From assembly GCA_905235805.1 (NCBI GenBank), contig CAJOMV010000059.1:1-34395 (forward strand): 34,395 bases of DNA, in the 5' to 3' direction. Source of the DNA: an uncultured Ruminiclostridium sp. (GTDB lineage: Bacteria; Bacillota; Clostridia; Oscillospirales; Ruminococcaceae). Numbering within the stretch: position 1 is the stretch's first letter; each line of letters starts with the position of its first letter. The position numbers and the translations under genes are program-made. The notes under the pieces were generated by a model. The model worked only from the letters and a program-made list of their open reading frames with translations, made no database searches and had not been told where the DNA came from. Positions 9,522 to 22,441 of the stretch are shown here, piece by piece.

Positions 9522-11489
9522 ATGAATATCAAGGTTAAAACCGCCCTCAGGGTCATCCTCATCGGAACGACGGTGCTCCCGCTCATTATCGTGGCACTGG
9601 TCGCTGCCCTCCAGATCTTCGGCTTCGCAAGCACGATGATCGGTGATGAAGCAGCTACCTCCGGAGCAGCGCTAAGCTCGGGTGTTTCCAATATCGCGAC
9701 AAGCTACCTCAACGACGCGGAAGCGCTCGCGGGTATGGATTTCGTGAATACCTCGATCAAGAACCTTAACGGCGTCAAGGCAGACCTCGACAGCATCGTG
9801 ACGGTGATGAAGGCTGACAGAAATGTGCTCGATATCGCGGTCACCGACAGCGAAGGCAGGCTGATCTACGATTCGAAGGGTTCCTCCGCAGGCTCGACCT
9901 TCTTCGCCTACAGCGATAAGTGGAGCCCCACAAAGGAAGCGTTCGTTTCCAAGTTCTACAAGAATGAGACGACCTACAGCGCAAACCTCTTCGTAGCTAC
10001 AGCTCCCCTCAAGGGCAACGACGGCGGCTATGTCTCCATAGTTGTGGACATCTCCGAGATAACCGATTACCTCAAGAAGGCGCAGTTCCTCACATACGGC
10101 ACTCTCGTTGTAGCCGACGCGGATTCCGTACTTAACTACAACAGCACCGATATAAGCGCAAGCACAGACCTCTCGGGTGTTGTCAAGCCCGATCTCACCA
10201 AGATGCTCTCCTCCAAGACAGGCGACACCGGCGAGAAGCTCGAGGACGGCACATACCTCGGCGCGTACGGCAATATCAACGGCACCGAGTGGGTATGGAT
10301 AGCTCTTTATCCCGCTTCCCAGACCAGCAGCGCCGTAATGCTCGTAGTCATCATCGGTCTCGTGATAATCGTAGCACTCGCGCTCGTATGCGTTCTCGCG
10401 GCTATCATAGCTTCTCAGAAGGTCATCGACCCCATGCTCAACATGCTCAAGACCATGAAGGGTATCAACGAGGGCAACCACAACGAGCGTATCAACACAG
10501 CGGGCATGGGCAAGGAGTTCGCGAATATGTCGAACGTTTTCAACGACATGATGGACCAGTCCCTGCTCAGTGAAGAGCTCCACAGGACCGTTACCGAAAT
10601 TTCCGATAATATGCTGTTTGAATGGGATTTCGCAAAGGAGTCCATGTACGTTTCTGATAACTTCAAGAACAAGATCGAGCTCGATGTTTCCGGAGCTACC
10701 CTCAGCAACGGTCGCTTCCTCGATTCCATGATGGAAGAGGAGGAAGCAGAGAAGTACAAGCGTGATATCTCCACCCTCTTCAAGAACAAGGACGATGTCG
10801 GCGGCGAGTACAAGATCAAGAACAAGGGTCAGGATATGTGGGTTTCCATGAGAGCTCACTGCATCACCGACCGTCTCGGCGAAGTCCTCCGCGTTGTCGG
10901 AGTCCTCACCGATATAACCAGCGAGAAGAACGCTACCCTCAAGCTCGCGGAGCGCGCAAGCTTCGACTTCCTCTCGCAGCTGTACAACAGAAATACCTTT
11001 GAGCGTGAGTTCGCTTCCGAGCTCGAGAGAAATGTGGGCAAGAAGGTCGCTGCTCTGTTCATAGACGTCGACGACTTCAAGTTCATCAACGACCGTTACA
11101 GCCATGCTGTCGGCGATGAGGTCATCAGATTCGTTGCCGATACTATCAAGAAGAGAACAGGCGAGACAGGCTTCGCGGGACGCTTCGGCGGTGATGAGTT
11201 CGTACTCTGCATCTCCGACCCGAACCTCGTTGAGAATGTCGAGGTCCTCTCCATGGATATCATAGATGACCTTTATGCGGGCTACTATTCGGCATCGGTA
11301 GATACCACCCTCAATATCAAGGCATCTATCGGTATTGCTATCTATCCCGACCACAGCACGGACGGCAAGGAGCTGGTAGGCTGCGCGGACGCTGCGATGT
11401 ACTTCGTTAAGAAGAACGGTAAGGCAAACTACCACATCTACGTTCCGGACGACAGCAACCTCGAAGGAAACTTCACTTCCTCGCTCTAA
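9522..11489 (+). CDS. Membrane-bound diguanylate cyclase (Cache-like, HAMP, PAS, GGDEF)
   Basis: The GGDEF domain makes c-di-GMP from two GTP. An N-terminal membrane helix (about residues 10-32) and a second one (about 270-297) enclose an extracellular, probably Cache-type, sensor. A HAMP-like linker follows (about 298-350), then a PAS domain (about 365-470) ending with VVGVLTDITSEK, then GGDEF (about 490-645). The active site FGGDEF is intact at about 555-560, with the usual DVDDFKFIND metal-binding motif. The inhibitory RxxD I-site is absent: the equivalent positions read GETG. It is closely similar in layout to the protein at 31185-33092. It follows the PilZ gene by 75 bp and is followed by a terminator. 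The sensed signal is unknown. Confidence 0.93.
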   Translation: MNIKVKTALRVILIGTTVLPLIIVALVAALQIFGFASTMIGDEAATSGAALSSGVSNIATSYLNDAEALAGMDFVNTSIKNLNGVKADLDSIVTVMKADRNVLDIAVTDSEGRLIYDSKGSSAGSTFFAYSDKWSPTKEAFVSKFYKNETTYSANLFVATAPLKGNDGGYVSIVVDISEITDYLKKAQFLTYGTLVVADADSVLNYNSTDISASTDLSGVVKPDLTKMLSSKTGDTGEKLEDGTYLGAYGNINGTEWVWIALYPASQTSSAVMLVVIIGLVIIVALALVCVLAAIIASQKVIDPMLNMLKTMKGINEGNHNERINTAGMGKEFANMSNVFNDMMDQSLLSEELHRTVTEISDNMLFEWDFAKESMYVSDNFKNKIELDVSGATLSNGRFLDSMMEEEEAEKYKRDISTLFKNKDDVGGEYKIKNKGQDMWVSMRAHCITDRLGEVLRVVGVLTDITSEKNATLKLAERASFDFLSQLYNRNTFEREFASELERNVGKKVAALFIDVDDFKFINDRYSHAVGDEVIRFVADTIKKRTGETGFAGRFGGDEFVLCISDPNLVENVEVLSMDIIDDLYAGYYSASVDTTLNIKASIGIAIYPDHSTDGKELVGCADAAMYFVKKNGKANYHIYVPDDSNLEGNFTSSL

Positions 11490-14569: not shown

Positions 14570-17071
14570 TTAACCGAGAGTTACCTCAACCTCGTGAACG
14601 CCGTTCGCGAAAGCGGGGATAACGTTGCCGTCAACCGGCTTGCCGTCCACTGTCATGGACTTGACGCCGCTCGATACATGATCGGGGTTCTTGACGGTGA
14701 CATTATAGGTCGCGCCTCTGAACAGTCTGGAGATCTTGAAGCCGTCCCATGCCTTCGGAATGGACGGGTCGATCTTGAGCCCGCCGTACTGGGGCTTCAC
14801 GCCGAGGATATACTGGGAGATAGCCACGAAGTTCCATGCCGCCGTACCGGTCAGCCAGCTGTTCTTTGCCTCGCCGTGACGGGGAGCGTCCTTGCCGGCG
14901 ATCATCTGAGCGTAAACGTACGGTTCTGTTCTGTGCAGGTCGGAGTGCTCTTCCCTGAATGCGGGAGCGATCTTTGAATAGTATTCAAACGCCTTGTCGC
15001 CGCGTCCCACAGCAGCCTCGGCGCACATGATCCACGCGTTGTTGTGGCAGAAGATGCCCGCGTTCTCCTTGTAGCCGCCGGGGTATGTGGAGATCTCACC
15101 GTACTGGATATAGTAATGTGTGAATGCGGGGTTGTTGAGCACAAGACCGTGGTCGGAGTTGAGGTACTTGTCGACGCTGTCGAGGGTCTTGATATCGTCG
15201 CCGGTCTCCTTGCCGAGACCTGCGAGAACGCAGAAGCCCTGCGGTTCGATGAATATCTTGCCTTCCTCGTTCTCATGCGAGCCGACCTTCTGTCCGTAGT
15301 GGTCGTATGCGCGCAGGAACCACTCGCCGTCGAAGCCGTACTTCATTGTGGCTTCCTTCATCTTCGCGACCTCGGCGTCGGCGCGCTTTGCTTCCTCCTC
15401 GTCGCCCATGAGCCTGCACATAGCGGCGTACTCCGGACCGATGAAGCAGAACATACCCGCGATCATCACGGATTCCGCCACCTGGCTGTAGAACGGCGGA
15501 TCCTTGAACATATCCTTGTTGTTGTAGGTCTGGAAGGATTCACCCGGCTTGTCCGAGAAGCAGGAGAGGTTCAGGCAGTCGTTCCAGTCCGCGCGTCCGC
15601 TGAGGGGCAGTCCGTGAGGTCCGACATTCCTTACGACGTGATCGAATGCTCTCTTCATGTGGTCGAGCATGGACGCAGCCTTGCTGTCGTCGTTCTCGTA
15701 GGGAACTACCTCATCGAGAATGGACTTGTCGCCTGTCTCCTTGATATACGCTGCAACCGCGAGTATCATCCACAGCGGGTCGTCGTTGAAGTTGGAGCCG
15801 AGCTCGTGGTTGCCCTTCTTTGTGAGGGGCTGGTACTGGTGATAAGCGCCGCCGTCCTCAAGCATTGTCGCCGCGAGGTCGAGCACACGCTCACGCGCTC
15901 TCTCGGGTATCTGATGAACGAAGCCGAGCAGATCCTGGTTGCTGTCGCGGAAGCCCATGCCTCTGCCGATACCGCTCTCGAAGTAGGAAGCGGAGCGGGA
16001 CATATTGAATGTGACCATACACTGGTACTGGTTCCAGATATTGACCATTCTGTTGACCTTCTCGTCGGGGGAGTCAACATGATACTGGCAGAGCAGGTTG
16101 TCCCAGTAAGCCTTCAGCTCTGCGAAGAGCTTGTCCGCCTTCTCCGCGGTGTCGCAGAGGGCTATCATCTCGTGAGCCTTGGTCTTGTTTATGATGTTCT
16201 TCTTTGAATTTGCGGTGGTGATTATCTTGTCGTCGGGAGTAAGGTCGGGAGCGAACTTCTCCTCCGGCTTGTTCTCAACGTAGCCGAGCACGAATACGAG
16301 ATCCTTGCTTGCGCCTGCCTCGAGATCAACGTTGATGTAGTGGGAAGCGACAGGCGACCAGCCGTCTGCAACGGAGTTGTTCGGGCTGCCCTGCATAACG
16401 GTCTGCGGCTCGCCGAAGCCGTTGTACAGACCGAGGAAGCTCTCTCTGTCGGTATCGAAGCCGCTTATCTTCGCGTTTACGGAGTAGAATGCGTAGTGGT
16501 CGCGTCTCTCCTTGTATTCGGTCTTGTGGTAGATAGTGCTGCCCTCTATCTCTACCTCGCCGGTATTGAAGTTTCTCTGGAAGTTCGTGGAATCGTCCTG
16601 TGCGTCCCAGAGGCACCACTCGAGGAAGCTGAACAGCTTGATGCTCTTGAATGCGCCGGTCTTGTTGGTGATCGTCACCTTCTGTATCTCGCCGTTGAAG
16701 TTCTGGGGGACGAAGAAGGTCACCTTCGCTTCTATCCCCTTGGACTCGCCCTTTATAATAGTGTAGCCCATACCGTGGCGGCACTCGTAGTTGTCGAGGT
16801 CAGCCTTTACGGGAGACCAGCCGGGGTTCCACACATGACCGTCGTCATTGATATAGAAATAGCGTCCGCCCATATCGACGGGGACATTGTTGTAGCGATA
16901 GCGTGTGATGCGGCGGAGCCTTGCGTCCTTATAGAAGCTGTAGCCGCCGGCGGTATTCGAGATGAGGGAGAAGAAGCCCTGTGTGCCGAGGTAGTTTATC
17001 CACGGGTAGGGGGTTCTGGGGGAGGTGATGACATATTCCTTATTGGCGTCATCGAAAAAGCCGAATTTCAT
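14570..17071 (-). CDS. Cellobiose phosphorylase (GH94)
   Basis: The enzyme splits cellobiose with phosphate into glucose 1-phosphate and glucose, saving ATP during cellulose-derived sugar use. The 833-residue protein has the GH94 N-terminal beta-sandwich ([20 protein letters not shown], then [10 protein letters not shown]) and the (alpha/alpha)6 catalytic domain. [10 protein letters not shown] (near residue 495) carries the general-acid Asp, and [14 protein letters not shown] the substrate-site residues. There is no signal peptide, so it is cytoplasmic. Length agrees with known clostridial and ruminococcal cellobiose phosphorylases. The relatives cellodextrin phosphorylase and chitobiose phosphorylase are alternatives, but the start and length favour cellobiose. 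A GAAAGGA site lies upstream. The promoter has a LacI/cre-like operator beside it. No transporter or LacI gene is adjacent in the window. Confidence 0.93.
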
Positions 17072-17223: not shown

Positions 17224-17253
17224 TTGGCTTTGAGCGCCTTTCTGTGTTATAAT
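17224..17253 (+). promoter_or_regulatory. Extended -10 promoter of the structured leader
   Basis: -35-like TTGGCT (17224-17229), 18 bp and perfect -10 TATAAT (17248-17253), with an extended TGT just before it. Transcription should start at about 17260, one base before the first arm of the leader's closing stem. A TTGACG at 17217 is too far from the -10 to be used. Confidence 0.7.
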
Positions 17254-17259
17254 AATCGG

Positions 17260-17480
17260 GCCAAACAACACAATTAAATATTTCCGGATATTCTCATGAG
17301 TATTACTGTTTCCATAACACACCCTTACTATATGGTAAGGGTGCAGTTTCGGGTGTGTTATGGACTCGGAATATTTGTGTTGTTTGGCGACAATCAAAGC
17401 TGCATTTTTACAGTGCGCGGCTCTGATTGCCGCGCATTTTTATTTATACAGACTTTCAAACAACACAGGAGGAACAGAAA
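17260..17480 (+). ncRNA. Candidate structured leader/attenuator RNA before the lipoprotein
   Basis: P1: CCAAACAACACA (17261-17272) pairs perfectly with 17376-17387, and the stem continues through AATATTTCCG with CGGAATATT (one bulge). Inside, TCCATAACACACCC (17311-17324) pairs perfectly with 17351-17364. Alternatively CACCCTTAC (17320-17328) pairs with GTAAGGGTG (17335-17343); the two share bases. CAATCAAAGC (17391-17400) can pair (9 of 10) with 17420-17429, which would disrupt the terminator at 17414-17436. CAAACAACACA recurs at 17457-17467 and touches the AGGAGG of the lipoprotein, so the 3' arm of P1 could instead mask that site. I recognise no known riboswitch class. A miniature inverted-repeat element is the main alternative. 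Confidence 0.5.
17414..17448 (+). terminator. Intrinsic terminator inside the leader
   Basis: TGCGCGGC (17414-17421), loop TCTGATT, GCCGCGCA (17429-17436), then TTTTTATTTATA. It is a perfect 8-bp GC-rich stem with a T-run, placed between the promoter and the lipoprotein ATG at 17481. Confidence 0.85.
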
Positions 17481-18407
17481 ATGAAGAAAACAAATGTAAG
17501 AATAATGGGAATATCGCTTTGCGCGATAATGGCATTAATGGCTACTGGCTGTAATAATAACAGCGGCAATACCAATGCCGCTACATCAAATACCACAGTT
17601 GCGGTAAGTAAAGATGAATACGAAACAGAGGTAACTACACTTGCCGCTACGGAAAAAGAAAATAACAATACGGAAATCACAAGCGGCGAGGTTTATGTTC
17701 CTTCACATAAGGTTGATGAAATATATAACACAACGCTTGAACCGAATATTTCTGACGACATAACATTTCAGGTTGATTTCAAATATTTTCCAAATGGAAA
17801 TATAGACTGGTTACATCAATTTGAAGATGATATGTCTGTATATACATTTGATTTAGACAATAATCCTACATATTCGGATATTGTTGATAATCTTCCTATG
17901 AAATTATATACATACGAAAATTCGGTTGGTAATGTTGATATGGATAATGATATAATGAAGTTTAAATATACATCAATAGCTCATACTATAGTAGAACCGA
18001 CAGATGATTACAAAGAAGCAAATAGAATATCATTTGAACTTGCTGATACATCGGGTAATATAATATCAATTAATGATATAAATAAAAACGCTCACATAAA
18101 AGCTGTATCAGCATTGAAAGCATCGTCGAGTATAAGCAATGAATTATATCCTTGTCTTATAACAATAACAGTAAAAAATACAAGCGGCGATTATATTAAT
18201 ATTATGGCGGGAAATGATTTTGATGATACAATATCAAAATTATCAAAATTAACCGAAACAGATGAAAATAATATGAAAGCAGGAAGAAATAATACCAACA
18301 ATGTAAGGATAATAAAAAATAATAAATATACATTATATATAGAAGATGTAAATACAGAATGGGGAAAAGTAATAATGCGGATTATATTAATCAACAATGA
18401 GATATAA
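17481..18407 (+). CDS. Unknown lipoprotein
   Basis: I do not recognise the family. The first 24 residues form a lipoprotein signal (basic MKKTNVR, hydrophobic core, lipobox MATGC), so the mature protein should be anchored on the outer face of the membrane by C24. A Thr/Asn/Ser-rich linker follows to about residue 75. A mixed domain to residue 308 looks like a beta-rich extracellular fold but has no motif I can name. The start at 17481 follows AGGAGG by 8 bases; an earlier in-frame ATG at 17427 would put the terminator stem inside the coding region. The gene is much richer in A/T and uses AAT, ATA and AAA far more than its neighbours, which suggests recent transfer. It sits behind a structured leader and ends at a good terminator. 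Confidence 0.8.
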   Translation: MKKTNVRIMGISLCAIMALMATGCNNNSGNTNAATSNTTVAVSKDEYETEVTTLAATEKENNNTEITSGEVYVPSHKVDEIYNTTLEPNISDDITFQVDFKYFPNGNIDWLHQFEDDMSVYTFDLDNNPTYSDIVDNLPMKLYTYENSVGNVDMDNDIMKFKYTSIAHTIVEPTDDYKEANRISFELADTSGNIISINDINKNAHIKAVSALKASSSISNELYPCLITITVKNTSGDYINIMAGNDFDDTISKLSKLTETDENNMKAGRNNTNNVRIIKNNKYTLYIEDVNTEWGKVIMRIILINNEI

Positions 18408-18446: not shown

Positions 18447-18507
18447 GTATTTATATAACTTAGTTGACAAATAACAATATATTTGATATGAAATAAACAG
18501 AAATGTG

Positions 18508-18536
18508 TTGCAATTTGCGATACTTTGTGATATAAT
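18508..18536 (+). promoter_or_regulatory. Promoter of brnT-brnA
   Basis: -35 TTGCAA (18508-18513), 17 bp and -10 TATAAT (18531-18536), with an extended TGA. The likely start site (about 18543) falls on the GGAGG ribosome binding site, so the leader would be only about 13 nt. BrnA-type antitoxins usually repress their own promoter. Confidence 0.7.
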
Positions 18537-18555
18537 AAGAATGGAGGGTGACACA

Positions 18556-18852
18556 ATGGAAATAGTGTATAATGATATAACTTTTGAGTGGGATTCTGAT
18601 AAAGAAAAAATCAATATCAAAAAGCATGGAATGGATTTCAGGACGGCAGTCCGTGTATTTGGCGATGAAGGAAGGATCGAACTCTATGATCAGAAGCATT
18701 CGACAGAGGAGGACAGATATCTGACTATCGGAATAATAGATAATAAGGCGATTGTTGCAACAGTATGCTATACGGAAAGAACCGATAAGCTGCGGATAAT
18801 ATCCGCCAGAGAAGCTACAAAGGAAGAAAGGAGATTGTACAATGATCGTTAA
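18556..18852 (+). CDS. brnT: BrnT-family toxin
   Basis: The 98-residue protein matches the BrnT family (RelE-like ribonuclease toxins). It starts with the typical FEWDSDKEKINIKKHGMDFR, has the E/D-R-Y-L-T-I-G core (EEDRYLTIGI) and ends in LRIISAREATKEERRLYND. All the usual motif positions are present, so it looks intact. BrnT cleaves RNA and stops growth until bound by BrnA. The start at 18556 has GGAGG 8 bases upstream; an earlier in-frame ATG at 18505 lies inside the promoter. It overlaps brnA by 11 bp, the standard toxin-first order for this type II system. It is more A/T-rich than brnA and the flanking genes. Confidence 0.92.
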   Translation: MEIVYNDITFEWDSDKEKINIKKHGMDFRTAVRVFGDEGRIELYDQKHSTEEDRYLTIGIIDNKAIVATVCYTERTDKLRIISAREATKEERRLYNDR

Positions 18853-19156
18853 AACTACGCTTAAGGACGTTATGAGCCAGCCGCTTACCGAGGAACAGAA
18901 GAAAATGCTCGACGCACTCGACGGAGATCCCGTTCCCGATGAGGACTGCCCCGCGTATTCTTATGAGGAGCTCAAGGAAATGAAGCGGCTTGCGGACGAA
19001 CGCAGAGCAGAGCGCAACAAGCAGTCCGTCACGCTTCGCCTGACCCCGGAGACTTTAAGAAAAGCCCGCGCTCTCGGCAAAGGCTACACCTCGATACTTG
19101 CACGGATAATCGAAAACGCGCTGAATGACCCGGAAACCATAAGGAAAAATCTTTGA
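18842..19156 (+). CDS. brnA: BrnA-family antitoxin
   Basis: The 104-residue protein has a variable acidic N-terminal half (about residues 1-58), then the conserved C-terminal ribbon-helix-helix DNA-binding segment KQSVTLRLTPETLRKARALG, followed by KGYTSILARIIENAL. BrnA binds and neutralises BrnT and, through the ribbon-helix-helix domain, represses the shared promoter. The start codon overlaps the end of brnT, giving translational coupling. GGAG within the end of brnT acts as its ribosome binding site. Base composition is closer to the chromosome than that of brnT. Confidence 0.88.
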   Translation: MIVKTTLKDVMSQPLTEEQKKMLDALDGDPVPDEDCPAYSYEELKEMKRLADERRAERNKQSVTLRLTPETLRKARALGKGYTSILARIIENALNDPETIRKNL

Positions 19157-20085: not shown

Positions 20086-20589
20086 ATGACAGAACAAGAG
20101 CTTACCCGCCTTGTCGGGAAATATCGTGCGAACGTGTACAGGCTCGCACTGTGCTATACGAAGAACCACGCCGACGCGGAAGATGTGACGCAGGAGGCTT
20201 TCTTAAAGCTGTTCAGAAGCGGCATGGACTTTCTTATCGACGAGGAGGCTAAGGCATGGCTTTTCAGGGTAGCAGCGAACAAGTGCAAGGACTTGCTCAA
20301 GTCCCACTGGTATAAGTTCTCCGAGCCGCTGACCGACGATATGAGAGCGCCGGAGAGCGGCGACGAGGACGGGGAGCTGCTCTCGCTGATGTCGAAGCTC
20401 CCGCCGAAAACGCGGACAGTGCTTTATATGTACTACTACGAAGAATATTCCGTAAAGGAGATTGCGAGGTTCCTCGGTGAGACCGAGACTTCGGTCACAT
20501 CGCAGCTGTGGCGCGGGCGCAAGCGCCTGAAAGCACTGCTGGAACAAGGTGAATGCGGGAAAGGAAGTGAGCTTCATGACGGAATATAA
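20086..20589 (+). CDS. ECF-type RNA polymerase sigma factor
   Basis: The 167-residue protein has sigma region 2 (YRLALCYTKNHADAEDVTQE, then AFLKLF) at about residues 17-45 and region 4 (LPPKTRTVLYMYYYEEYSVK, then EIARFLGETETSVTSQLWRG) at about 105-150. Regions 1.1 and 3 are lacking, as in ECF factors. It should direct RNA polymerase to a small regulon in response to an envelope or extracellular signal. GAGGTACATATA precedes the ATG. Its end overlaps the next gene by 14 bp, and the next protein is membrane-bound with a short cytoplasmic head, the usual partner arrangement. A palindrome lies at its likely start site. Regulon and signal are unknown. Confidence 0.93.
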   Translation: MTEQELTRLVGKYRANVYRLALCYTKNHADAEDVTQEAFLKLFRSGMDFLIDEEAKAWLFRVAANKCKDLLKSHWYKFSEPLTDDMRAPESGDEDGELLSLMSKLPPKTRTVLYMYYYEEYSVKEIARFLGETETSVTSQLWRGRKRLKALLEQGECGKGSELHDGI

Positions 20590-22441
20590 CAAGATATTCA
20601 GGAATGCCTTTGACAGAATAACGCCGGCATCACCCGACGCGGATTTTATCGGGGGCATTATCGAAAGGGCTGATAAAATGGAGAAGGAAAGAAAGAATAC
20701 AAACAGCACCGTTTATCGCGCGGCTGAGGAATCAATGCCGCAGGTGGACTATAAGCCGAGGAAGGCTCCCATAGTTGCGGGTGTGGCAGCGCTCACAGCC
20801 GCTGCGGCGGGTATAGGCTTCTTCGCGGGCGGCGGCAATTTCGGAGACTTTCATTTCATACCGCTGAAAGAAGGCGGCGGAGCAGGGTATTCGGCGGGTG
20901 TGGACACCGACGCAGCGACTACTACTGTGCCGGTAATGACCGAGGACAGTGCCGCGGAATATACCACAGTTATCATGGACACAGCACCCACCGGCATTCC
21001 GGCGGAATATGATCTGGGCGGCTGTACGGTCAGGGTGAACGGGTATGAATTCGACTCCGCCGTTCTGAAACTGTTCTTCGATGTCGAGGGGGACGGCAGA
21101 AATACCACGGACGGGAACTTGCCCATAGGGCTTGCCGTTAATTCCGAGAAGGGCTTTCTCTCGCGCTATGAGAGGCTGGGCGACAGCAACAGCTATATGG
21201 CGCAGTTCATACTGTACCAAGCCGATAGAAAGTTCGATGTGTCATTCGCGGAGCTCGGAGGAAGCTTTGAACCCGAGAACGTATTCACCGCGGTATGCGA
21301 TAATAACGTGCAGGTGTGGGAGTTTGTCTGCGGGGAGGATATTCCCGGAACAGGCATAGGCAGTATACTCATTTCTCCCTATGAGGCAGTGGTATATTAT
21401 GATATGCTCGAAGGCACCGATGCGGAGAATGAGGAGAAAATGCAGGACGAGCGCCCCGTCATAGAGATACGCGACCATAACGGCGTGCGCGCCGAGTTTG
21501 CGGAGAGCCGCACTGTCGCTTATGACCACGGCAAGGGTTATCTTGTTCTCGGCTTCGTGGAGCAGTTCGCAAATATGAACACGTCATTCATCTCGATAAA
21601 TGGCGTGACTATATACGATGACAGCGAAAGCGCCGAGACATCGACTTATTACGAAGAATATGAGCAGATTGAACCACACACTATCTCCGTCGGCGGGAGC
21701 TGGGAAGGTCATTCGTTCCTCGGCTTCACCGGCAATGAGGTCGCAATGACCGGCTGGGAGTATGACGGACGTATCCTGAAGGTACGGCTTGTGGGGACGT
21801 CCGAAGATGTCGGTTACGTCGCAATACGCTCGACGACTTACCCCAGAAATATTCTCCAAAGCCATAACAGATACGACGAGGAGACAGGCACAGGCATATT
21901 CTACGCGATTTTAGATATACCCGCGGGAGAATATGATACCCTTGAATTCATAGACTTGGGTGCGGTTCTGGAAGGGAACTATCCCGAGGCGGGAAGTTCT
22001 CTGACCATAAAGGGCATTGATGACAGCGAACCGCTTATGGAGCGGGTAGGGCTGGATATGACGGAGTACGGTATGCCGGGACTTACGCTTGAATGGCTCA
22101 CACTGTCCCCCTTCGGGCTGGAGCTGTCGCTCACTGGCACGGAGCAGTTCAATTCTCCGGAGATATGGGTGGATATCACCTCCTTGAACGGCACGACTTT
22201 CCGGAACAGCGGCTACAGTTCCGTTGACCTTGTGGACGAGGAGACCGGCATTTATCACACCTCGGTCATCATAGTTCCCGAGGATTACATGACCGACCTT
22301 ACACAGATGAGAGAGTTTTCTATCAACGGTCTGAAAACCAAGCGCGCTGAATTCATGGCGAAGAGCTTCTGGGATATCCCAGAAAGCGAGAACGAGCTTA
22401 CACCGGTAGAAACTGCCGTGCAGGTCGTTACACCGGACTGA
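20576..22441 (+). CDS. Probable membrane anti-sigma factor with a large extracellular part
   Basis: The 621-residue protein has a cytoplasmic head of about 63 residues, one membrane helix at about 64-85 (PIVAGVAALTAAAAGIGFFA) and about 530 extracellular residues of beta-rich character. The latter include repeated stretches of the form VELTGWEYDGR-like strands and two long segments after residue 330. No named domain was recognised. The anti-sigma role is inferred from its 14-bp overlap with the sigma gene and its topology; the small head would hold the sigma factor. The start at 20576 is preceded by AAGGAAGTGA, whereas an upstream in-frame ATG at 20549 has no site. The large outer part may sense or bind a ligand. 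No protease is encoded nearby. Confidence 0.7.
   Translation: MTEYNKIFRNAFDRITPASPDADFIGGIIERADKMEKERKNTNSTVYRAAEESMPQVDYKPRKAPIVAGVAALTAAAAGIGFFAGGGNFGDFHFIPLKEGGGAGYSAGVDTDAATTTVPVMTEDSAAEYTTVIMDTAPTGIPAEYDLGGCTVRVNGYEFDSAVLKLFFDVEGDGRNTTDGNLPIGLAVNSEKGFLSRYERLGDSNSYMAQFILYQADRKFDVSFAELGGSFEPENVFTAVCDNNVQVWEFVCGEDIPGTGIGSILISPYEAVVYYDMLEGTDAENEEKMQDERPVIEIRDHNGVRAEFAESRTVAYDHGKGYLVLGFVEQFANMNTSFISINGVTIYDDSESAETSTYYEEYEQIEPHTISVGGSWEGHSFLGFTGNEVAMTGWEYDGRILKVRLVGTSEDVGYVAIRSTTYPRNILQSHNRYDEETGTGIFYAILDIPAGEYDTLEFIDLGAVLEGNYPEAGSSLTIKGIDDSEPLMERVGLDMTEYGMPGLTLEWLTLSPFGLELSLTGTEQFNSPEIWVDITSLNGTTFRNSGYSSVDLVDEETGIYHTSVIIVPEDYMTDLTQMREFSINGLKTKRAEFMAKSFWDIPESENELTPVETAVQVVTPD

Follow-up and report, generated by a model that had tools for sequence, protein, structure and literature searches.

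A putative riboswitch-like transcription attenuator family upstream of genes for exported proteins in gut bacteria

Architecture of the leader in the window

An uncultured Ruminiclostridium sp. carries a long, highly structured leader between a promoter and a lipoprotein-like gene, and the locus raises the question of whether this leader is a regulatory RNA and, if so, of which kind. The window analyzed here is the whole 34,395-nt stretch of DNA, a single contig (G000:C59) from a draft genome of 2.43 Mb. A first-pass annotation had read the leader as an RNA switch that controls both termination and translation by strand exchange, had named a miniature inverted-repeat element as the competing idea, and had proposed folding, an Rfam covariance search and covariation among homologous leaders as checks. 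In our reading, the element is quite likely a cis-acting transcription attenuator from a new RNA family working like a riboswitch. It is similarly probable that the regulated genes are envelope genes, and the family is called riboswitch-like here, with binding of a small ligand being putative. The parts of the element and its surroundings are as follows.

17224..17253, + strand: promoter, TTGGCT (4/6) at 17224-17229 and extended -10 TGTGTTATAAT at 17243-17253 (from the sequence)
17260..17441, + strand: complete RNA element, running from about +1 through the terminator U-run (R2 match at E = 2e-22, which is not independent because the window copy is part of the R2 training set)
17260..17273, + strand: P1 5' arm, pairs with 17375-17388 over 14 bp (fold)
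17287..17304, + strand: P2, optional local hairpin (fold)
17311..17324, + strand: P3 5' arm, partner 17351-17364, 14 bp (fold)
17320..17343, + strand: P4 hairpin, 17320-17329 paired to 17334-17343, which competes with inner P3 and with PK1
17335..17349, + strand: PK1 5' strand, inside P1/P3 (duplex prediction; co-variation)
17375..17388, + strand: P1 3' arm, whose end doubles as part of the antiterminator (fold)
17387..17400, + strand: antiterminator 5' strand, the linker between P1 and PK1 (duplex)
17396..17411, + strand: PK1 3' strand, directly 5' of the terminator (duplex of 12-15 bp with 17335-17349)
17412..17441, + strand: intrinsic terminator, stem 17412-17421/17429-17438, U-run 17437-17441
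17420..17433, + strand: antiterminator 3' strand, comprising the top of the terminator 5' arm, the loop and the 3' arm (duplex)
17457..17467, + strand: second CAAACAACACA copy, adjoining AGGAGG and particular to the window
17467..17472, + strand: AGGAGG ribosome-binding site (sequence)
17481..18407, + strand: downstream gene encoding 308 aa, whose signal sequence contains, by eye, a lipobox-like MATGC

The minimum-energy fold of 17260-17480 reaches -78.8 kcal/mol compared with -46.1 kcal/mol for shuffled sequences (z = -8.8; 0 of 200 shuffles as good). The extended -10 promoter, the inner 14-bp stem (P3) and the terminator hairpin are present as the first-pass annotation had them. The closing stem (P1) does begin at about +1, but it spans 14 bp rather than 12, and the competitor hairpin on the strand of the inner stem exists as P4, with 10 bp ending in a U-G pair instead of a perfect 9-bp helix. 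The segment before the terminator can likewise pair with the terminator loop and stem as suggested, although the extent of this antiterminator core (17387-17400 with 17420-17433) is 12 of 14 positions rather than 9 of 10. Two features go beyond that annotation, namely the PK1 pairing (17335-17349 with 17396-17411) and the finding that the window copy is one of many. P2 is absent from some relatives (e.g., L053), and the sequence of P3 is highly variable among them.

The gene downstream of the element has a GC content of 0.30, versus 0.52 for the window, and its product has no Pfam match above the cut-off. The surrounding window contains, by Pfam, a GH94-type gene divergent from the element (14570-17071, minus strand) and a pair of BrnT toxin and BrnA antitoxin genes past the lipoprotein gene (18505-19156). 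A Sigma-70 family factor, ECF-like by size, followed by an overlapping 630-aa frame without a Pfam match, is located at 20086-22441.

The suggested control of translation was built on an exact repeat of CAAACAACACA beside the AGGAGG. The repeat is real, as CAAACAACACA occurs at 17262 and 17457 only, and an 11-mer of the P1 5' arm was found again in 75 of 200,000 shuffles of 17442-17480. However, it is no feature of the family. When the P1 3' arm was compared with the 60 nt downstream, complementarity of 8 or more was found in 3 of 90 copies versus 1.7% of cross-pairs, and the duplex test of this arm against the ribosome-site region gave z = -1.8 (p = 0.06), so that pairing of the ribosome site with P1 was rejected for the family. 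Translation control through the repeated CAAACAACACA is possible in the window alone. Three copies (window 17457-17467, L047 and L049) have the context AACACAGGAGGAAC 5' of the start codon in common, and the window repeat may derive from this shared ribosome-site context.

Distribution, promoters and gene context of the family

The window RNA is one copy of a large family. BLASTN found one copy in its own genome and matches in 4 of 59 other related genomes, all of the same genus. By eye, these relatives share a long closing stem at +1, a variable arm, a conserved block 5' of the terminator and a gene with an export-type start just past the terminator. Covariance models were required because BLASTN alone found few copies; with window 17260-17441 as the seed, R1 was built from 6 sequences and R2 from 91. 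Within the genus, R1 matched 34 of 71 genomes (E ≤ 0.01), and within the order 107 of 394, covering 59 of 168 genera (E ≤ 0.001); R2 matched 100 of 391 genomes of the class in 57 of 222 genera (E ≤ 1e-4). The window's own genome is included in each count. A phylum-wide draw with R2 gave 1 match in 398 genomes (E ≤ 1e-5), namely the window's own genome, in a sample that included only some genomes of the class, of which those listed had no match. Six candidates were scored per genome in the order, class and phylum draws, and these counts are therefore lower bounds. With 150 candidates scored in each of eight chosen genomes, 4 to 30 matches per genome were found, a few of which are reverse-strand shadows (3 of the 13 matches in G312, 1 of the 6 in G585, and none of the 30 in the genome with the highest copy number). 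The window's own genome has four R2 matches, which are 58-73% identical to one another compared with about 50% for shuffled sequences.

Scanning 84,980 named species genomes with a pattern that describes just the terminator block identified at least 112 stretches, of which 80 loci were examined. At the place of the pattern, 79 of these loci match R1 or R2 (75 match R1 and four more R2), in a scan that is not fully independent because both models contain the same block. The exception is an actinomycete locus (L084), where the match extends over 48 nt and reaches only E = 0.011. Most of the named records are rumen and gut metagenome assemblies labelled Ruminiclostridium, Ruminococcus, Oscillospiraceae or Clostridia, and on account of these labels the class of the family is very probably Clostridia.

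For analysis of the family, 3 reverse-strand matches of 77 were left out of the first set of relatives and 6 of 85 out of the second (L117, L112 and L122 as reverse-strand matches, L132 twice, and L106, which matches R2 at 2e-12). The remaining 153 rows represent 136 distinct elements, 131 of them with 300 nt downstream; the end of the L007 element was set by hand. Helix parsing failed for 5 of the 136, and L040 and L083 were misparsed and dropped, leaving 129 elements and 91 non-redundant representatives. A further set (75 of 84 rows) contained 74 elements, 7 of which were already in the first set, and thus added 67 further distinct copies.

Element length ranges from 145 to 247 nt (median 163) among the 91 non-redundant copies, and the median length of P1 is 13 bp. 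P1 encloses, in order, the optional hairpin P2, the variable stem P3 and P4 with a GGUAAAA-type 3' arm, and is followed on its 3' side by a AGCAAUCGGAGC-type linker, the sequence UGCAUUUUU(A)C and the terminator, in this order. In 201 of 202 distinct copies, the element is preceded by a -10 box (≥4/6) that ends 5-8 nt upstream of it (shuffled rate.45), with the extended -10 TG in 192 (.07) and a -35 box of ≥4/6 in 176 (.24), where the shuffled rates were computed on 209 upstream regions including duplicates. Because the -10 lies in a fixed register, transcription probably starts at the foot of P1. The copies are promoter-RNA-terminator units starting at about +1, and they also occur in tandem: 16 distinct consecutive pairs lie 47-154 nt apart, and in the six tandem arrays that were read each unit has its own promoter. 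Two near-identical whole tandem units in L139 (1936-2101 and 2205-2370), promoter included, are probably a recent cassette duplication.

The units are positioned ahead of genes. A Shine-Dalgarno-led frame of ≥60 aa, with its start within 70 nt on the same strand, follows the terminator at 17-67 nt in 96 of the 131 copies, versus 142 of 2259 random positions (p = 8e-75). By a simple rule, 70 of these 96 genes encode an export-type N-terminus, versus 75 of 353 control frames (p = 1e-20). The remaining 35 copies have no such gene start within 70 nt, and 10 of these are upstream members of tandems. The proportions are weaker in the 67 further copies but still far above random, with a gene in 38, an export-type product in 25 of those, and no nearby gene start in 29. 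In the window's own genome, all four copies precede genes that look lipoprotein-like or membrane-protein-like by eye.

A Pfam scan of 91 of the 96 downstream proteins, leaving out five near-duplicates, identified BspA-type leucine-rich repeats in 19, versus 1 of 91 control genes (one control, L115:4095-5294, itself starts 198 nt past an element), and Big_2 in 10; the BspA-type repeats recur in 13 of 42 proteins of a second set that has one protein in common with the first. Other products include AbrB/MazE-like, zinc-ribbon, methyltransferase and AMP-binding proteins. Exported or surface proteins are thus enriched in a set that also contains many proteins without known function and some cytosolic ones. 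At L199, L200, L201 and L207, from several genomes, the element is followed by members of one family of small proteins (about 78 aa, MNIKxELLKxYI...).

The long inverted repeat, the several copies per genome and the local tandem duplications are what a miniature inverted-repeat (mobile) element would also present. The evidence nevertheless makes this explanation extremely improbable, as the copies in the window's own genome, at their modest identity, are not near-identical dispersed copies, the promoter register is fixed, genes follow on the same strand, and the alternative helices described below are conserved. Two patterns had no match among viral contigs, and one member gave no plasmid match. 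For this member there were also matches in two unannotated 'phage' records, one of which (MT835845) was examined and looks like bacterial chromosome. This record (MT835845.1, L266, labelled Bacteriophage sp.) carries an element at 2077-2229 (R2, E = 2.6e-25) before a lipoprotein-like gene, and it has ClpB-like and YicC-like frames.

Competing helices and the proposed attenuation

The conserved helices of the family are mutually exclusive: P4 competes with PK1, and P1 together with PK1 competes with an antiterminator that undoes the terminator. PK1 pairs the block UGCAUUUUUAC with the 3' arm of P4 and the bases that follow it (median 15 bp), and folding yields, in 91 of 91 copies, a P4-like hairpin that overlaps PK1. 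The antiterminator, with a median of 16 bp, joins the foot of the P1 3' arm and the linker to the top of the terminator 5' arm, the loop and the 3' arm. Of the 91 copies, 88 show an overlap of the antiterminator with P1, 88 with PK1 and 90 with the terminator 3' arm.

As a test for co-evolution, the pairing of the two strands within a copy was compared with that of strands taken from different copies (20,000 permutations). The own duplexes of PK1 have -16.7 kcal/mol versus -13.6 kcal/mol for cross-pairs (z = -12.8) and those of the antiterminator -20.7 versus -17.9 kcal/mol (z = -12.0), with 0 of 20,000 permutations as good in either case across the 91 copies, while the control pairings gave z = 0.1 (downstream with linker) and z = -1.7 (upstream with linker). 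Both results hold in the 65 copies with a tetraloop terminator (PK1 z = -10.6, antiterminator z = -6.4) and in the 25 with a longer loop (z = -5.6 and -8.6). In the narrowest subclass, 24 copies of nearly invariant sequence, PK1 is still significant (z = -4.5) and the antiterminator is not (z = -1.2). In alignment A4, which was fitted to P1, P4 and the terminator and leans towards those helices, changes on both sides occur at 14 of 14 pairs of P1 and 8 of 10 pairs of P4. Paired cells amount to 92.0% for PK1 and 84.3% for the antiterminator. None of 500 shuffles reaches the percentage paired or the covariation score of P1/P4/terminator, of PK1 or of the antiterminator; for the latter two, both values also exceed all slid versions, a comparison that favours them since both structures were taken from one member (L022). 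The number of PK1 pairs changed on both sides was equalled or beaten by 35 of 500 shuffles. The permutation and column tests ignore the relatedness of the copies. The co-variation of the competing helices across relatives supports the first-pass proposal that termination is controlled by strand exchange.

The terminated RNA of 145-247 nt could instead be the product itself, a stand-alone small RNA acting in trans. Each unit has its own promoter, in fixed register, and its own terminator, both RNA ends lie inside helices, and copies without a nearby gene start (35/131, and 29/67 further ones) as well as the tandem pairs would fit such a product; occurrence as cassettes is uncommon among riboswitches, which leaves room for the small-RNA reading. 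We consider it unlikely, however, as a gene begins 17-67 nt past the terminator in 96 of 131 copies, the own strands pair better than cross-pairs, and the antiterminator would be purposeless in an RNA of this type. A leader-peptide attenuator of the trp/ilv-leader type would likewise make use of the terminator and antiterminator. This alternative was rejected and has a very slim chance of being correct, as Shine-Dalgarno-led starts inside the element are not above chance (17 of 91 copies versus a shuffled mean of 20.3).

An attenuator of the riboswitch type thus remains the preferred explanation, and the support for such switching is computational. A conserved, co-varying domain lies in the 5' leader, and it is coupled to a computed expression platform with mutually exclusive folds. 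Transcription would begin near the first G of P1. Fold A would have P1 closed, and the strand before the terminator would invade the P4 hairpin, making PK1; P1 and PK1 would then hold both ends of the antiterminator strand, the terminator would form and the gene would be off. In fold B, the base of P1 and PK1 would be open, and the freed strand would pair with the terminator loop and 3' arm, allowing the polymerase to read on. Because P1 and PK1 hold the antiterminator ends, transcription should terminate while the sensor domain is folded and continue into the gene once it opens. The balance may be set by some signal acting on the P1-PK1 domain, which could be a small molecule, a protein or another RNA. 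Computation supplied the helices, the evidence that they exclude one another and co-vary, and the gene context, whereas we infer the start site, which fold is off, and the existence and identity of the signal.

Folding of growing transcripts of the window gave the antiterminator as the best fold for 3' ends at 17429-17433 and the terminator from 17435. In the complete window RNA, the terminator fold wins by 3.7 kcal/mol when six antiterminator pairs are forced, and across the 91 complete elements, forcing the whole antiterminator costs a median of 9.1 kcal/mol relative to the best fold. Since the terminator fold wins in complete RNAs, the switch would have to be decided during transcription, and given the deficit of 9.1 kcal/mol, fold B must be kinetic or assisted. 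In L003-L006, a GCGCACCGT-like segment between the terminator and the Shine-Dalgarno sequence is complementary, by eye, to the terminator 5' arm ACGGTGCGC. The family test of this arm against the 45 nt downstream was not significant (z = -1.8, p = 0.11).

The best candidates for a binding site, judged from conserved and enriched motifs, are AAUC in the linker, AATA and GAAA beside P1, and UUUC after PK1. In members with a tetraloop (n = 65), the four linker positions are conserved as A in 60, A in 55, U in 45 and C in 38; AAUC would lie between P1 and PK1 in fold A and be largely unpaired in fold B. AATA occurs near P1 in 64 of 91 copies versus 31 in shuffled sequences, GAAA in 48 versus 13.5, and UUUC 3' of PK1 is enriched over shuffles. 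The motifs near P1 would also suit a sub-case of the attenuator, in which an RNA-binding protein holds P1/PK1 or frees the antiterminator. The many copies per genome before varied envelope genes would be in keeping with a one-factor regulon, and we regard protein control as a possible but less probable form of the mechanism.

Known RNAs, novelty and significance

The first-pass annotation knew no riboswitch class with this layout, and Rfam 15 agrees, as no family matches the window at its gathering cut-off or at E ≤ 0.1. Ten matches in the window region at E ≤ 10 are all far below gathering (best E = 0.54). Across 18 member loci, a tRNA was the sole match, and 10 further loci searched at E ≤ 0.5 had no element match at gathering. 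A SNORA68 match (E = 0.19, 27.8 of 43 bits) covers the first 25 nt of one element, and the sub-threshold matches look like chance. No T-box match at the cut-off was found in the window or the 18 member loci. A paper of 2017 reportedly presented 224 candidate RNAs. In a literature search that covered titles and the openings of abstracts, no paper describing the RNA was found. The family is apparently uncatalogued, although a piece of the element RNA may appear among the 3161 human-microbiome candidates in the supplements of PMC8040213.

In its logic, the element resembles several known riboswitches. SAM-I, lysine and purine riboswitches use an antiterminator controlled by P1; the element shares with this type a 5' leader position and a P1 3' strand that is common to the antiterminator competing with an intrinsic terminator. 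It differs in having no Rfam match at the cut-off, in a terminator and antiterminator that are conserved parts of the motif, in its fixed promoter register and in tandem units with a promoter each. The ZTP and fluoride riboswitches are pseudoknot riboswitches in which the strand just before the terminator decides termination. The pseudoknot strand of the element is likewise located directly before the terminator, but its PK1 is about 15 bp long, would displace P4 and sequesters the antiterminator rather than the terminator.

The c-di-GMP-I and -II riboswitches (RF01051 and RF01786) occur in many copies per genome with surface-protein genes downstream. The element has the same habit, and the window itself contains a GGDEF gene (Pfam; 9522-11489), so that a c-di-GMP riboswitch of unfamiliar shape might be considered. 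The odds are strongly against it: the c-di-GMP-I and -II models have no match at the cut-off in the window or in the 18 and 10 member loci, and no GGDEF match was found in 6 of 30 element-bearing genomes (5 of 27 good-quality ones), which makes c-di-GMP unlikely as a universal ligand. A weak riboswitch candidate with a terminator-loop pseudoknot is described in PMC11109978 (Nucleic Acids Res. 2024). Its terminator stem-loop may form a pseudoknot with a preceding part and prevent termination, similarly to the element, but the candidate is tied to a tetrahydrofolate-formylation gene and the partner is the preceding hairpin (PMC11109978).

The chances are about even that the family is a new riboswitch class, probably with a new signal, that it controls a large regulon of envelope genes in gut Clostridia, most of them uncultured, and that it multiplies in the form of entire promoter-sensor-terminator cassettes. 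With its presence in about one quarter of the sampled class genomes, up to 30 copies per genome and no family in Rfam 15, the RNA would rank among the commoner uncatalogued regulatory RNAs of gut bacteria, and it offers a handle on the control of surface proteins in poorly known gut Clostridia. Its interlocked helices provide a clear model, amenable to testing, in which strands displace one another as the RNA is transcribed. Should the element sense a small molecule, that molecule could well lack any known RNA sensor.
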